Part shown: positions 4,718 through 17,816 of the stretch, one piece after another
How the letters are laid out: each line of letters begins with the position of its first letter
Position numbering within the stretch: position 1 is the first letter of the stretch
Virus record (IMG/VR): IMGVR_UViG_3300043426_000074
Coordinates: 1 to 23,830 of that record
DNA from: a virus
DNA: 23,830 nt
Direction: 5' to 3' (one strand)
Position numbers and translations under genes: made by a program
Notes under the pieces: generated by a model
Seen by the model: the letters and a program-made list of their open reading frames with translations, nothing else
Databases searched by the model: none
What the model was told of the DNA's origin: nothing

Positions 4718-5668
4718 CATATTGTCCCATACGTTCGTTATGCGTATGCGGTACGTTAAAGCACCCGCCCTGTATTTCTACAGGGATCAGACTAACTCTT
4801 ATACTTATTTACTTCTTAGCGCATGACTTACATGACGTAGCATCTAATCTACGTAATCTTGCAAAATCTATTTGAGCCTGTTTACCGCAAACACACTTAC
4901 AAAGTATGTATGCTTTACCTGCTCTATAGGATAAGTCTGGATCAATAACTTGCCAGGAATTAAATAATAAGCCTACGCTGTCTTGAGCTAGTTTATGTAA
5001 ATTAGCTGTGCTTATAGCACCTGCTACCTTACCTGCCTTAGACTGTGCGTGAAATAATCTACCCTGTTTTTGGGCATGTATCATATTCTCTGAATGAGTT
5101 ACCCATTCTATGTTAGACACCTGATTATTCTCTGCATCATTATCTATGTGGTTAATCATTGGTTTATTTAACGGATTAGGTATAAAAGCTTCTGCTACTA
5201 AACGATGTACTAAAAATCTAGAAGTAACGTGGTTCTTACATAAAGTAACTCTATGGTATGTAGAATTACTCATTACACTTTTATCCGTTTTTAAAACCCT
5301 TTCAGGATACTGTTGTAGTCTACCGTTCTTGTTGGTTACTGATCTGGCTAGTGCCTTTACAGAACCTTCATCACTTACTTGGTATAAACCTTCATACCCT
5401 AAAATATCTTTCCAAACTGTCATTGCACTTTCCTCAATGTTATAGCTAGATTTAAATATAGCACTAACGTTGTGGTAAGTAAATAAGCATCCTCCCATTT
5501 CAAACCCACTTGGGTCTTACTCTACTCAGTTCAGCTAAGCTGCTTTTCGATAGTCGTTACACACGGCTAATGCCTTGCTCGGTATTGTCTTCAACTTAAT
5601 GGTCAGAGTTTCACCGAATTAGGGAGGTTTGCTAATAGGTATCACTACCTATAGGGGCATGGTTGTTT
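4718..5668 (-). ncRNA. Group I self-splicing intron (td-like, subgroup IA) in the helicase/primase gene
   Basis: A 951-nt intron on the minus strand. The 5' exon ends GGGT (U at 5669) and the intron ends in G (4718), the group I rules. P1: exon GGGU pairs with GCCC at 5658-5655. P2: AUAGGUA-GUGA-UACCUAU, 5652-5635. P3: CCUCCC (5627-5622) with GGGAGG (5496-5491). P4: UCGGU (5617-5613) with ACCGA (5583-5579). P6: GGC/GCC, 5574-5565. P7: GACUA (5555-5551) with UAGUC (4794-4790). A CCCAAGUGGG hairpin precedes P3'. P8: 14 pairs, 5490-5477 with 4814-4801. P9: CCCUGUA-GAAA-UACAGGG, 4785-4768. P9.1: GGUGC/GUACC. P9.2: CAUACG/CGUAUG with UAACGA in its loop. From my memory of T4 td, UAACGACUAUC at P7 and CAAGU in P7.2 also match. 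Splicing has not been tested. Confidence 0.88.
4809..5423 (-). CDS. Intron-encoded HNH homing endonuclease (NUMOD4-HNH-zinc ribbon)
   Basis: The 204-residue protein starts MTVWKDILGYEGLYQVSDEG, a NUMOD4 motif, after a GAGGAAAG ribosome site. The frame is open for 25 more codons upstream, but those codons form P3' and P8 of the intron, so the ATG at 5423 is chosen. The HNH domain follows (HRLVAEAFIPNP, INHIDNDAENNQVSNIEW, VTHSENMIHA). The C-terminus carries a zinc-ribbon-like CKCVCG...CKSC. The whole ORF lies in the P8 loop, and its stop codon is inside the 3' strand of P8. The enzyme would nick the intron-less helicase gene near the P-loop codons and so drive intron homing. This is predicted from family behaviour. 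Confidence 0.88.
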   Translation of the reverse strand: MTVWKDILGYEGLYQVSDEGSVKALARSVTNKNGRLQQYPERVLKTDKSVMSNSTYHRVTLCKNHVTSRFLVHRLVAEAFIPNPLNKPMINHIDNDAENNQVSNIEWVTHSENMIHAQKQGRLFHAQSKAGKVAGAISTANLHKLAQDSVGLLFNSWQVIDPDLSYRAGKAYILCKCVCGKQAQIDFARLRRLDATSCKSCAKK

Positions 5669-5885
5669 ACCCTGATACTGCTAGGTTTAATGCGTAAATA
5701 TTCAGTGGAATTGGAGTGCTACCCCAACCTACTACCTTCGTATGCATCTGGGAAGCGAGTACTCCCCAATAATATTGACATGCAATGCGAAAGAACATTC
5801 TCTGTTTGTTCTGAGAACGCTCGCATAAGATGTCTACGATCTGCTCTGTCATTGGATGATAGGGCATTTGATCAAAACTTTTCAT
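5669..5885 (-). CDS. DUF3987-type helicase/primase, exon 1 (joins 2793-4717)
   Basis: Seventy-two codons plus one base. The peptide starts MKSFDQMPYHPMTEQIVDIL, contains FFRIACQYYWGVLASQMHT and ends PIPLNIYALNLAVSG. This is the conserved N-terminal region that leads into Walker A in phage DUF3987 helicases. The final T and the first two intron bases (AA) make an in-frame UAA, so unspliced RNA yields only a 72-residue fragment with half a P-loop. Splicing joins T to TC, giving Phe and the sequence SGFGKGFS. The ATG at 5885 is the first possible start because a TAA lies two codons upstream. It has only a weak ribosome site (GGTA) and follows the nuclease gene by about 30 bases, so translation may depend on that gene. 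Confidence 0.82.
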
Positions 5886-14371: not shown

Positions 14372-15988
14372 ATGCGTAATGCAATGTGGGTAGGTAGAGG
14401 TATTAGAGGTATGGGTGGAATTCCTATGCTTGGTACTGGTGCTAGAGGTTTAACAGCCTTAATCAGAGGGATATTTCGTAATAACGAACAAGGCTTCTTC
14501 TACGACCCAAACGATCTAAGCACGATGTATCAGGATGCAGCAGGTACTACTCCTGTGACGGCTGTGGGGCAACCAGTGGGGTTGGTACTGGATAAGAGTA
14601 AAGGTTTAGCTTTAGGTGCTAACTACCTAAATACTGCTACGTTAGATTTCACTATTGGTTGGTCTAGTACAGCAAGCGTTACAGCAAAATCTAAAAATTC
14701 ATTTACAGTAAACGGTTCAGGTGGATGCTATAGAAACTTGAGTGGGTTGATAAGTAAAGTTGTACGTATTAGATTAAAAGGTCGGTGCGGTGTTTCATGG
14801 ACGTTACGCAATAGCGGTGACGCTAATGGCGCGGTAAATGTGCCTGCTGGAGAGTTCGATGTAACTTCCAATAACGCTGAGATATTTAAAAACTCTGCGT
14901 CAATATATTTTATAATTAATGGGGCATCTACGCTTACTTTAGACTCTATTTCAGTTGATGAATTAAAAGGCAACCACGCATACCAAACCACATCAGCAGC
15001 AAGACCTATCTTGCAGCAGACACCTATACTTGGTAATGAGCTGGTTGTTAATGGAGACACATCAAATGGAACTGACGGTTGGATAACAACGAATGCTACA
15101 CTACAAACTATAGATGGCTCATTTGTTATGGCTTCTTCTGCTCAATTTGGTGGTGTAACAAAGCCTATTTCCCTAGACACTTCTAAAACGTATGAACTTA
15201 CTTTTACTGTTATAGGTAATACAACAAATGTTGTATTAGCAGCAATTATTCGCCCCGCTAGCACAATAACAAACTACGCAAGTGTGACTATCACTACAGC
15301 AGGAAAGTATAAACTGATATTTAAACCTACAGAAGTATCATCTAGGTTTATGTTCCAACACAGTAATGTAGCACCTACTGGTAGCTTAACTTTTGACGAT
15401 GTAAGTATTAAAGAAATCACAGGCTACCGCACAGATCAAAACTACCTAGCATTTGATGGTGTTGACGACTTCCTACAGACGAATAATATTGACTTCACTG
15501 CTACAGACAAGGTGAGCTTGTTTACTGGGGTGCGTAGGTTGAGTGATGCTGCGCCATCAGTTCTTGTTGAATTAAGCGCATCTATAGCAAATGTTGGCAC
15601 ATTTAACATACAAGCCCCCCGAACAGGAAACTCTTATGGTGTTGGTGTTCGCGGCTCAACACTCAATGCAGTAGACTATTCAACGTACACAGCACCAATT
15701 TCTAATGTTATTTCATTGAAACTCACTACATCAGCAACCAACTATCTTGGAGCGATTATGGGTAGATTTGATGGTGTAAATACCGCAGGATCTGCCAATT
15801 CAAGTGCTGCATCAATAGGCAACTACGGCAACTACCCACTCTACATCGGCAGACGAGGCGGCACATACCTGCCGTTCAACGGTCATCTATACAGCTTAAT
15901 CGGCATTGGTAAATTAACTTCAGACAGTGAAACATTAGCTATTGAAAAAGAACTAGCTAAACGAATAGGGGTCACGCTCAGTGTTTAA
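14372..15988 (+). CDS. Long tail fibre / adhesin-like protein with carbohydrate-binding folds
   Basis: A 538-residue protein. The N-terminus MRNAMWVGRGIRGMGGIPML is Gly-rich. Then comes a collar motif (GFFYDPNDLSTMYQDAAGTT, then PVTAVGQPVGLVLD) widespread in phage structural proteins. Residues about 100-230 and 240-370 look like beta-sandwich carbohydrate-binding modules (ELVVNGDTSNGTDGWITTN is typical of CBM-like repeats). From about 375 (YLAFDGVDDFLQTNNIDF) to the end it resembles a LamG/concanavalin-like lectin domain. I choose the ATG at 14372 with AAGG upstream rather than 14345. It lies after a terminator and may have its own promoter. Parts near 14820-15900 look richer in G+C than neighbours, suggesting mosaic acquisition. 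Receptor binding is inferred. Confidence 0.75.
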   Translation: MRNAMWVGRGIRGMGGIPMLGTGARGLTALIRGIFRNNEQGFFYDPNDLSTMYQDAAGTTPVTAVGQPVGLVLDKSKGLALGANYLNTATLDFTIGWSSTASVTAKSKNSFTVNGSGGCYRNLSGLISKVVRIRLKGRCGVSWTLRNSGDANGAVNVPAGEFDVTSNNAEIFKNSASIYFIINGASTLTLDSISVDELKGNHAYQTTSAARPILQQTPILGNELVVNGDTSNGTDGWITTNATLQTIDGSFVMASSAQFGGVTKPISLDTSKTYELTFTVIGNTTNVVLAAIIRPASTITNYASVTITTAGKYKLIFKPTEVSSRFMFQHSNVAPTGSLTFDDVSIKEITGYRTDQNYLAFDGVDDFLQTNNIDFTATDKVSLFTGVRRLSDAAPSVLVELSASIANVGTFNIQAPRTGNSYGVGVRGSTLNAVDYSTYTAPISNVISLKLTTSATNYLGAIMGRFDGVNTAGSANSSAASIGNYGNYPLYIGRRGGTYLPFNGHLYSLIGIGKLTSDSETLAIEKELAKRIGVTLSV

Positions 15989-16313
15989 ATTATCTGTAGT
16001 AAACATCGTCCCTGATGCTCACAAAGATGCGATTAACCAGATTGCTGGAGCTTATGGCTGTGGTGATAACAATCTTTCCATAAAACTACAAGGTGAAGAT
16101 GGTATCTATTGGGGTTGTCATTCATGGTGGAAGCCAGAAGATTACGCAGTATTCAGTGATGATGGGTTACGTAACCTAATGGTTCCTGTAGAATTACGTG
16201 AGTCACTTAATCATTTGTATGAACGTCTATCTTTAGATGGTGATGCGCAAGAGAACTGGCAAGCAGCCTTAACTGAATTAAACCTTATTGCTTATACTCA
16301 AGAGGAAGTCTGA
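15981..16313 (+). CDS. Small protein downstream of the fibre gene (110 aa), unknown
   Basis: Starts at GTG (an AGGGG ribosome site precedes) inside the fibre gene's end and reads MFKLSVVNIVPDAHKDAINQ. It is soluble, with several tryptophans (WGCHSWWKPEDYAVF) and an acidic helical C-terminus. It resembles small conserved proteins placed right after tail fibres; a fibre chaperone or accessory role is possible but not shown. Overlap of 8 bases with the fibre gene and of one base with the next gene suggests a coupled trio. Confidence 0.65.
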   Translation: MFKLSVVNIVPDAHKDAINQIAGAYGCGDNNLSIKLQGEDGIYWGCHSWWKPEDYAVFSDDGLRNLMVPVELRESLNHLYERLSLDGDAQENWQAALTELNLIAYTQEEV

Positions 16314-16543
16314 TGACTACTAAAGTTTTACTAACCAACGCACCTGTGAAGATTGTTACTGCTGAAAACTGGGCATTACTATCTTCTACGTCAGGGATAG
16401 ATTTTAAAATCCACGTAGGTGCTACTGTATCTAGTGTAGATGCCTTCCACTTAATCCGAGAGATTGGCTTCGGTGTAGGTGTAACAGTATGGGCATGGAC
16501 TGATGGTGTTACGCCAGTCTATGTCAACGTATCACAAGGATAA
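16313..16543 (+). CDS. Small beta-rich hypothetical protein (76 aa)
   Basis: Starts MTTKVLLTNAPVKIVTAENW at an ATG overlapping the previous stop (TGATG). It is rich in Val, Thr and Gly and likely all-beta, as in small phage virion-decorating proteins. It has no cysteine or membrane segment. It ends the fibre operon just ahead of a terminator. Function is unknown; a virion role is inferred only from context. Confidence 0.6.
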   Translation: MTTKVLLTNAPVKIVTAENWALLSSTSGIDFKIHVGATVSSVDAFHLIREIGFGVGVTVWAWTDGVTPVYVNVSQG

Positions 16544-16549
16544 CTTAAC

Positions 16550-16580
16550 AGGCACTTCTTAGGAGGTGCCTTATTACTTC
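16550..16580 (+). terminator. Intrinsic terminator after the fibre operon
   Basis: A 9-bp stem AGGCACTTC / GAGGTGCCT (one G-T pair) with a TTAG loop, followed by TTATTACTTC, a moderate U-tract. Confidence 0.65.
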
Positions 16581-16610
16581 AACTAATTTGTAAGTTACTA
16601 GGAGAAAACC

Positions 16611-16655
16611 ATGAGTGATAAACCAGAGTTAACTCATGTAATTAGGTATCTATAG
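16611..16655 (+). pseudogene. Remnant of the original endolysin start (14 codons)
   Basis: A strong ribosome site (TAGGAG) precedes ATG and the peptide MSDKPELTHVIRYL then stops. Its first nine residues (MSDKPELTH) nearly repeat the endolysin start MSATPELTH at 17313, and the two DNA stretches also agree in most positions. Homology ends near 16640, exactly where the opposite-strand HNH gene ends. I read it as the old lysin start cut off by insertion of the HNH cassette. Confidence 0.6.
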
Positions 16656-17235
16656 CTCTATCCGCATCCCAACCATACTTATGCATACGTTGGTACACCT
16701 TCTTGTAGCTAATACCTTTCTGTTCGCATAACTCTATTAGTATATGTTCTTTACCTTTGTAATTTACTTTTACAGTATCCTGCCTGTTACGCATATTATT
16801 ACTACGTGTAACCCAATGACAGTTATCCTTGGTATAATTCCCATTATTATCTTTACGATCTAATTGGTAATCTTTACTAGGTCGCATACCTAAATCACGT
16901 ACGAAACAAGAAAAGCCAGAAAGTTCAGCAGTACCTTCTAACCAATCTTTTTGTACCGTTATCCCACGACCTCCATAATTTTTATAATCTTTACGGGTTT
17001 GGTCATAGCATCTTCTTTTCATATCGGCATAACTATTCATAGTAGGTGAATCTGCTAAACCGTGGGTTACATTAATTGGTACGCCTTTACGCATACTGTA
17101 AGAACATGTTTTACAGCATACAGATTTGCCTGATTTAATATCATAAGTATTACGTTTTGCAGTGTATCCACAAGTACAACGTACTTTTGCGTATTTTCCT
17201 GATATCTCTAAAATAGCCCAAGAACTTTTAGACAT
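16642..17235 (-). CDS. Free-standing HNH endonuclease with N-terminal zinc ribbon
   Basis: A 197-residue protein. A zinc-ribbon-like CTCG...CCKTC lies at residues about 19-43. The HNH region follows: HGLADSPTMNSYADMKRRCY, KNYGGRGITVQKDW, QLDRKDNNGNYTKDNCHWVT and SNNMRNRQ. A C-terminal NUMOD-like helix (ELCEQKGISYKKVYQRMHKY) probably binds DNA. The start follows AAGGAAT. It is transcribed against the tail and lysis genes around it and sits between two copies of the endolysin start, as expected for a homing cassette. HNH enzymes of this type nick DNA and spread by recombination. Confidence 0.85.
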   Translation of the reverse strand: MSKSSWAILEISGKYAKVRCTCGYTAKRNTYDIKSGKSVCCKTCSYSMRKGVPINVTHGLADSPTMNSYADMKRRCYDQTRKDYKNYGGRGITVQKDWLEGTAELSGFSCFVRDLGMRPSKDYQLDRKDNNGNYTKDNCHWVTRSNNMRNRQDTVKVNYKGKEHILIELCEQKGISYKKVYQRMHKYGWDADRAIDT

Positions 17236-17312
17236 GGTATATTCCTTTTATGCTTTTGGGGTATGTATATGACAATACTCCATGGGTAACTTTATTATAT
17301 GAGGATATATTA

Positions 17313-17816
17313 ATGAGTGCAACTCCTGAGTTAACACATATAAAAGTAGCTCGTAGCTACTTAGGTTTAACTGAAATTAAGGCATCGAATAAACACCCCA
17401 CTATAGACGCATGGGCTAAAACACTATCAGGTAAGTGGTTAATAGGACAACCCTGGTGCGGTACTTTCTGCGCTCAAGTGTTTAAAGAAGCAGGTCTCAG
17501 CGCCAAAGTACCTAAAGAGTTCTTTAGAGCTAAAGAGTGGGAGAATGCAGGCACTAAACTTAGTAAGCCTGCGTATGGTTGCGTAGTAACCTTTACACGT
17601 GATGGTGGAGGTCATGTTGGTTTTGTAGTAGGTAAGACTAAATCAGGTATGCTTAAAGTATTAGGTGGAAACCAATCTAATGCTGTAACTATTCAGGACT
17701 TTGACCCTAAGCGTGTTACAGCATATCGTTGGATTAGTACAGGTACTACTCCACATGATTATCGCTACGATCTACCTGTACTAGCAGCAGGTCGTATCTC
17801 TACTAACGAGGCTTAA
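17313..17816 (+). CDS. Endolysin, CHAP-like (TIGR02594-type) peptidoglycan hydrolase
   Basis: A 167-residue soluble protein starting MSATPELTHIKVARSYLGL. C49 in GQPWCGTFCAQVF is the predicted catalytic cysteine and H101 in GGGHVGFVVG the predicted histidine; GGNQSNAV completes the NlpC/P60-CHAP-like fold. It has no signal peptide or membrane segment, so it should need a holin. I use the ATG at 17313 (GAGGATATATTA before it); the frame is open 21 codons upstream but lacks a ribosome site. The enzyme would cut the peptide part of peptidoglycan at the end of infection. Its start region appears to have been replaced by the adjacent HNH cassette. Confidence 0.85.
   Translation: MSATPELTHIKVARSYLGLTEIKASNKHPTIDAWAKTLSGKWLIGQPWCGTFCAQVFKEAGLSAKVPKEFFRAKEWENAGTKLSKPAYGCVVTFTRDGGGHVGFVVGKTKSGMLKVLGGNQSNAVTIQDFDPKRVTAYRWISTGTTPHDYRYDLPVLAAGRISTNEA

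Follow-up and report, generated by a model that had tools for sequence, protein, structure and literature searches.

Homing genes are usually thought either to need an intron or intein when they sit inside an essential gene, or to settle between genes. The locus described here raises the question of how an HNH endonuclease gene, lying antisense to a phage lysin gene and flanked by two similar versions of its start, could have entered that coding sequence while a full-length lysin is still encoded. The window, by which we mean the whole stretch of DNA analysed, is a 23,830-base fragment from a Schitoviridae-like phage, to which the Acinetobacter phages At2, XC38 and nACB1 are the closest named relatives. 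A near-identical second record (IMGVR_UViG_3300046821_000076, 72 kb) has the same lysin/HNH arrangement and shows 4 mismatches to the window over 7,849 bases, 0 of them at the lysin/HNH locus; the structure is therefore not a one-off assembly error. The gene at window positions 15981-16313 occurs in two versions in this second record, one at either end (L018), and one of these departs from the window after about position 16264, perhaps reflecting a strain variant or an assembly join across a circular genome.

Judging from sequence comparison, we consider it very likely that a free-standing homing-endonuclease cassette carrying a replacement 5' end for the lysin invaded the lysin coding sequence without the help of an intron.

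Anatomy of the lysin/HNH locus

The initial annotation had described two similar gene starts with their own ribosome sites around an opposite-strand HNH gene, and this description held. The two 27-base starts, at 16611-16637 (MSDKPELTH) and 17313-17339 (MSATPELTH) on the plus strand, are identical at 21/27 nucleotides and 7/9 residues, a level reached in 0 of 3,000 dinucleotide shuffles of the intervening region, and the next best match to the 27-base start on either strand of the window is 18/27. The ATG at 16611 stands behind what appears to be the original ribosome site (AGGAG, 16600-16604) and opens a stub ORF of 14 codons (16611-16655, MSDKPELTHVIRYL, stop codon at 16653-16655). The second ATG, at 17313, stands behind GAGGA at 17301-17305 and opens the intact lysin, which begins MSATPELTHIKVARSYLGL (in a longer reading MSATPELTHIKVARSYLGLTE) and ends at 17816.

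Homology of the first copy had been said to end where the HNH gene ends, and indeed the HNH stop codon (16642-16644) starts four bases past the ninth lysin codon of the stub. The stub had also been called a 14-codon lysin remnant; its codons 1-9 are lysin-like (27 nt, possibly 4-7 nt more), but its last four to five codons correspond to the end of the HNH gene, read from the opposite strand. At the left junction (16638-16641, GTAA, possibly four more native bases before the HNH stop codon) the stub ends ...CATGTAA, and the corresponding sequence in phage Ab1-TPeters is CATGTAAAAGTA / CATGTAAAAGTAGCT (CATGTAA AAGTA across the junction), so the break possibly lies a few bases beyond codon nine. 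A promoter scan returned 6 sites against 7.9 expected by chance, and none of our readings is based on promoters.

The HNH gene occupies 16642-17235 on the minus strand, preceded by a ribosome site (AAGGAA, 17243-17248, minus strand), and encodes 197 residues. By alignment the protein has an N-terminal Cys4 zinc-ribbon-like segment and an HNH region with conserved blocks (YGGRGI ... LDR.D..G.Y...NC.W). It matches phrog_374 (E=9.9e-43) and phrog_3377 (E=1.7e-41) and has no significant match in Pfam-A or NCBIfam, its assignment resting on PHROGs. The closest named relative is the HNH protein of Obolenskvirus LZ35, with 40% amino acid identity. Between the HNH gene and the second lysin start, 17236-17312 holds the HNH leader on the minus strand and the new lysin leader on the plus strand, a stretch that we take to be borne by the cassette. 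The codons at 17313-17339 are likewise proposed to have arrived with the HNH gene, on the basis of the start comparison, the leader comparison and parallel cases.

The intact lysin (17313-17816, plus strand, 167 aa) is a CHAP / TIGR02594 peptidoglycan hydrolase, matching PF05257 (E=1.9e-7), TIGR02594 (E=4.5e-34) and phrog_1259 (E=4.7e-33), and it is 86% identical to the At2 lysin over the full length (167 vs 167 aa). Its best PHROGs match is a tail-lysozyme family and endolysins are also matched; this CHAP-type hydrolase is likely, though not certainly, the endolysin.

The HNH gene appears to have entered the lysin gene without an intron, as had been proposed. Within 16600-17400, an Rfam search returned no group I or group II intron match even at E<=10, including no group I catalytic core, whereas the same search found the primase intron of the window at E=0.003 as a positive control; a group I intron at the lysin was rejected as a candidate on this result. 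Being antisense to the lysin, the HNH gene cannot be an intein, and it thus lies outside any intron or intein.

Two further homing-type genes lie elsewhere in the window. The primase gene (4730-5885, minus strand; 57% identical to nACB1/XC38) is interrupted in its P-loop region, between ...LNLAVSG and GQYVGKGFSTG..., by about 930 nt that contain a NUMOD4/HNH_3 gene at 4809-5498 and match the group I intron core RF00028 on the 5' half (E=0.003, below the gathering score). Another HNH gene, at 1489-2214 on the minus strand, overlaps the 3' end of an AAA ATPase gene (2000-2731) and combines HNH_3 with AP2-like domains, a combination called IPA-HNH in PMC10448857. The primase, lysin and 1489-2214 loci thus place at least three homing-type genes of different kinds in 24 kb.

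HNH-free relatives and the native start

Relatives lacking the HNH gene had been expected to carry a single, uninterrupted lysin start, and, as far as the relatives allow resolution, this expectation was borne out by At2, the closest HNH-free relative (86% lysin protein identity), which has one start, MSAKPELKHIEIARSYLGLTE, in continuous frame with the lysin body. Ab1-TPeters, whose lysin is 61% identical to that of the window, also has no HNH gene, so that presence and absence of the gene vary among related phages, with a parallel polymorphism in Obolenskvirus. Neither At2 nor Ab1-TPeters has an ORF like the 14-codon stub ORF. HNH-free relatives carrying both starts, which would have spoken against an insertion, were not seen among the relatives examined.

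Upstream sequences distinguish the two copies. The 67 nt before copy 1 align with the 77 nt before the At2 lysin (TATTACTTCAACTAATTTGTAAGTTACTAGGAG vs TAATACCCCAACTAAAACAT-ACTTACTAGGAG, p=0.002 by shuffling), whereas the 77 nt before copy 2 show no significant similarity to the At2 leader (p=0.11 by shuffling), and the two leaders of the window are unrelated to each other (p=0.98). Because the At2 leader aligns with that of copy 1 and not with that of copy 2, copy 1 is most likely the original start, still at its original position, and copy 2 part of the inserted DNA. The native upstream region would accordingly span 16543-16610 on the plus strand, including a terminator-like hairpin at 16550-16571. 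Together, the single At2 start and the leader match argue for the cassette with a replacement 5' end, inserted near codon 10, that had been suggested for this locus, and the argument is sharper in the Obolenskvirus and L295/L296 loci described below.

Over the 27 nt of the start, copy 1, copy 2 and At2 are about equally distant from one another. Differences between the window and At2 lysins are spread evenly along the gene and do not bear on recoding of copy 2 relative to the lysin body; at 86% protein identity, that of the closest HNH-free relative, import of the first nine codons and import of the whole lysin would look alike. Scanning viral contigs with the lysin returned only the same phage again and relatives at or below about 51% identity, and a single scan of a genome collection returned three relatives at 44-45%.

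At2, XC38 and nACB1 share a conserved small minus-strand gene (L009 7714-7923, L115 7837-8046 and L116 6866-7060) situated 71-77 nt ahead of the lysin, and the intervening stretch contains a conserved motif, AGAGTCTGYAATAATAC. In the window the HNH gene occupies the spot of this small gene, and the AGAGTCTGYAATAATAC motif is absent before copy 2.

Replaced and duplicated gene ends in other phages

In LZ35 the HNH gene also lies on the opposite strand directly before the lysin, a GH108 enzyme (assigned on the IME-AB2 orthologue) unrelated to the lysin of the window. The 5' end of the LZ35 lysin is not recoded (0.056), and the insertion there is therefore merely next to the gene. In further Obolenskvirus phages, AbP2 and WCHABP1 among them, this gap is occupied by an unrelated antisense NUMOD4/HNH_3 gene, whose protein has no detectable similarity to the HNH protein of the window. 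We compared seven HNH-bearing with five HNH-free Obolenskvirus lysins and observed that 7/7 of the former share one invariant 48-nt 5' end through codon 16 (MNFDQAFKVTIGHEGS), in place of the MNFDKAFDTTIGHEGG of the five HNH-free lysins. Divergence between the two groups was 0.337 in nucleotides 1-48 and 0.083 in the rest, and within the HNH-bearing group it was 0.000 in nucleotides 1-48 vs 0.055 thereafter. Between AbP2 and IME-AB2, 17 of the 53 lysin differences fall in the first 48 nt, which occurred in 0 of 20,000 permutations. Among HNH-bearing phages, diversity stays at about 0.5% across the cassette, made up of the HNH gene plus the 48 recoded nucleotides, and increases to 5-15% in the flanks, a profile as expected of a cassette spreading by homing with co-conversion. 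Comparison of these lysins, and of these only, demonstrates a foreign origin of the 5' end by itself. The AbP2/WCHABP1 gene thus resembles that of the window in lying opposite to and directly before a lysin whose 5' end is replaced and which has a new ribosome site; it differs in its NUMOD4/HNH_3 type, in its position at codon 16 of a GH108 lysin and in the loss of the old lysin start except for its ribosome site. Acinetobacter phage vB_AbaM-SPA (L120) has an LZ35-type HNH gene with stops in all frames before its lysin, a decayed homing gene at the same site.

Searching with the AbP2 HNH protein revealed a further locus (L295/L296), in which an antisense NUMOD4-type HNH gene separates MAQFEPAFELMMVDEG from MAQFEPAFEIMLADEGGFLLHE; a complete GH108 lysin starts with the latter. 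The two L295 start copies are identical at 40/48 nucleotides and 14/16 residues, and the HNH stop codon follows immediately after codon 16 of the stub. Read from sequence, the anatomy seen in the window recurs here with a different HNH family and a different lysin family. L295 and AbP2 are 51% identical in their HNH proteins and only 31% in their lysins, and the L295 and Obolenskvirus lysins are both interrupted or recoded up to codon 16, in the conserved E-G-G of GH108. In the phage collection, all 18 top matches to the L295 HNH protein come from Obolenskvirus records; seven of these phages were within the loci read, and in all seven the HNH gene is at the lysin.

We then assembled 160 loci of the HNH family of the window and examined the flanks of the 134 that were distinct and testable for gene ends present twice. 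By strict protein criteria, 4/134 loci showed terminus duplications: a 34-codon 5' stub of an IMPDH/GMP-reductase (GuaB-like) gene (L131), a duplicated dNMP kinase 3' end (L201), a duplicated DUF7484 3' end with 16 identical residues (L229) and an ambiguous small gene (L260). Looser inspection added a DUF1289 5' end (L271), a DNA ligase 3' end (L159) and a 3' end fused to the HNH protein (L233), and at L295, L131 and L271 the stubs end at the HNH gene. Applied to 386 other ORFs, this test yielded three positives, all of them HNH loci (L129 and, twice, L295), leaving 0/383. The start pair of the window is too short for the strict protein test and was detected by DNA comparison (z=6.8). As the strict cases are a minority of the HNH loci, terminus duplication is, on these sequences, one of several ways in which HNH genes settle. 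Flank matches at L164, L225, L244, L193 and L125 were rejected as GC-rich low-complexity sequence, that at L290 as paralogous tail genes, and those at L137 and L192 as apparently repeated flanks of tandem HNH genes. At L129/L131, the GuaB-like gene with its 5' end duplicated around the HNH gene also has a probable internal LAGLIDADG intein and a GIY-YIG-like gene directly upstream, placing three kinds of homing element at one gene.

Competing readings, mechanism and significance

A different history would be recombination with a donor whose lysin was preceded, in the intergenic gap, by an HNH gene; this would have brought in the HNH gene and the entire lysin, leaving a crude left junction in old codon 10 and the remainder of the old lysin lost. 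The small gene of At2, XC38 and nACB1 makes an opposite-strand neighbour a normal layout in this phage group, and both the even spread of differences between the window and At2 lysins and the LZ35 HNH gene beside an unrecoded lysin are compatible with such a transfer; we nevertheless regard it as unlikely, given that close Obolenskvirus relatives show replacement of the first 48 nt only, with a sharp edge, that the L295, L131 and L271 stubs end at the HNH gene, and that an HNH stop codon at the junction, in the window and in L295, fits insertion into a defined site. If the lysin start had first been duplicated in tandem in a single genome and the HNH gene had then inserted between the duplicates, two copies with start and ribosome site would also result, yet this history is very improbable: the copies differ from each other as much as each does from At2, their leaders are unrelated, the duplicated stretch stops at the HNH stop codon, and no such duplications surround the 383 control ORFs.

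The good ribosome site and start codon at 16611 could alternatively belong to a functional leader peptide that regulates the lysin, with no insertion involved. We find this scarcely credible, as 657 nt and an antisense gene separate the stop of the stub ORF from the lysin start, the final codons of this ORF are the end of the HNH gene in reverse, and At2 and Ab1-TPeters have no such ORF. Nor do we give more than a negligible chance to splicing of copy 1 onto the lysin body through removal of a group I intron that has the antisense HNH gene inside it. The primase gene of this phage does contain a probable group I intron harbouring an HNH gene, but the lysin locus matches no intron family even at E<=10 and the second complete start makes splicing unnecessary.

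Sequence comparison establishes the anatomy of the locus, the most likely native place of copy 1, the single start of an HNH-free relative and the recurrence of the arrangement in unrelated phages, and the favoured invasion by a cassette with a replacement 5' end can be sketched from there. The cassette would comprise three parts: the HNH gene, which runs antisense to the lysin, a new leader that includes a ribosome site, and the replacement first nine or so lysin codons. The HNH enzyme would cut or nick an HNH-free lysin gene near codon 10, and repair would copy the cassette from a co-infecting phage. The old 5' end would remain upstream as a cut-off stub that reaches as far as the HNH stop codon, and the new 5' end would be joined in frame to the resident lysin body, such that lysin is still made. 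The carrier would not be recut, with its site interrupted and a new 5' end that differs in DNA but little in protein. Lysin cutting, the cut position, the repair route and immunity are modelled here on established free-standing homing genes (PMC2988022; PMC12724721).

Replacement gene ends are known from mobile ORFs of fungal mitochondria, in atp6 of Allomyces macrogynus and in atp6, atp9, cox2 and nad3 of Glomus sp. (PMC3630166). As in those elements, the window combines a free-standing endonuclease ORF with a terminus, duplicated and diverged (21/27 nt), that would be foreign and replaces the resident one in frame, here with the 167-aa lysin; the native terminus, copy 1 with its At2-matching leader, is displaced and left over, and the supplied and native copies are diverged in DNA and similar in protein. 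The fungal elements replace C-termini and are of LAGLIDADG or GIY-YIG type, whereas the cassette of the window replaces an N-terminus with an antisense HNH gene in a phage; it works like the fungal family and is not filed as a member. C-terminal phage versions were found in our scan (L201, L159 and L229). The free-standing HNH genes mobE in Aeh1 nrdA and mobA in T4 gene 60 likewise lie inside essential phage genes without an intron (PMC2988022), but there the gene is split into two working polypeptides, whereas in the window the lysin is full length, the other piece has nine codons, and a single polypeptide is restored by the supplied 5' end. There are free-standing homing genes whose carriers are immune since the neighbouring target sequence differs, as summarised in PMC12724721; by analogy, divergence beside the nuclease gene, transferred with it, may make the carrier of the window cassette uncuttable, although those genes lie outside their target gene and the HNH gene of the window lies within it. 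In the open-access literature searched, the fungal cases were found and a phage description of N-terminal terminus replacement was not, and terminus replacement was not seen in the available portions of surveys of phage homing genes near essential genes (PMC10448857) and of lactococcal HNH genes (PMC12724721).

On balance we favour a broader proposal, in which phage homing endonuclease genes have a general, previously undescribed route into essential coding sequences: a cassette with a recoded 5' or 3' end would restore the gene and remove its own target, with neither intron nor intein needed. Its instances would be the lysin of the window, the codon-16 site of GH108 lysins shared by unrelated phages, and the loci at GuaB, DUF1289, kinase, ligase and DUF7484 genes, with independent origins in two or more HNH families that are not related. 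Obolenskvirus phages that carry the cassette and others that lack it are culturable, which makes the proposal directly testable, and the stubs left by a cassette are recognisable and orient the insertion event. A cassette that supplies the missing gene end would represent a third route into essential genes, and by moving gene ends between phages it would recode lysins and enzymes at their termini.
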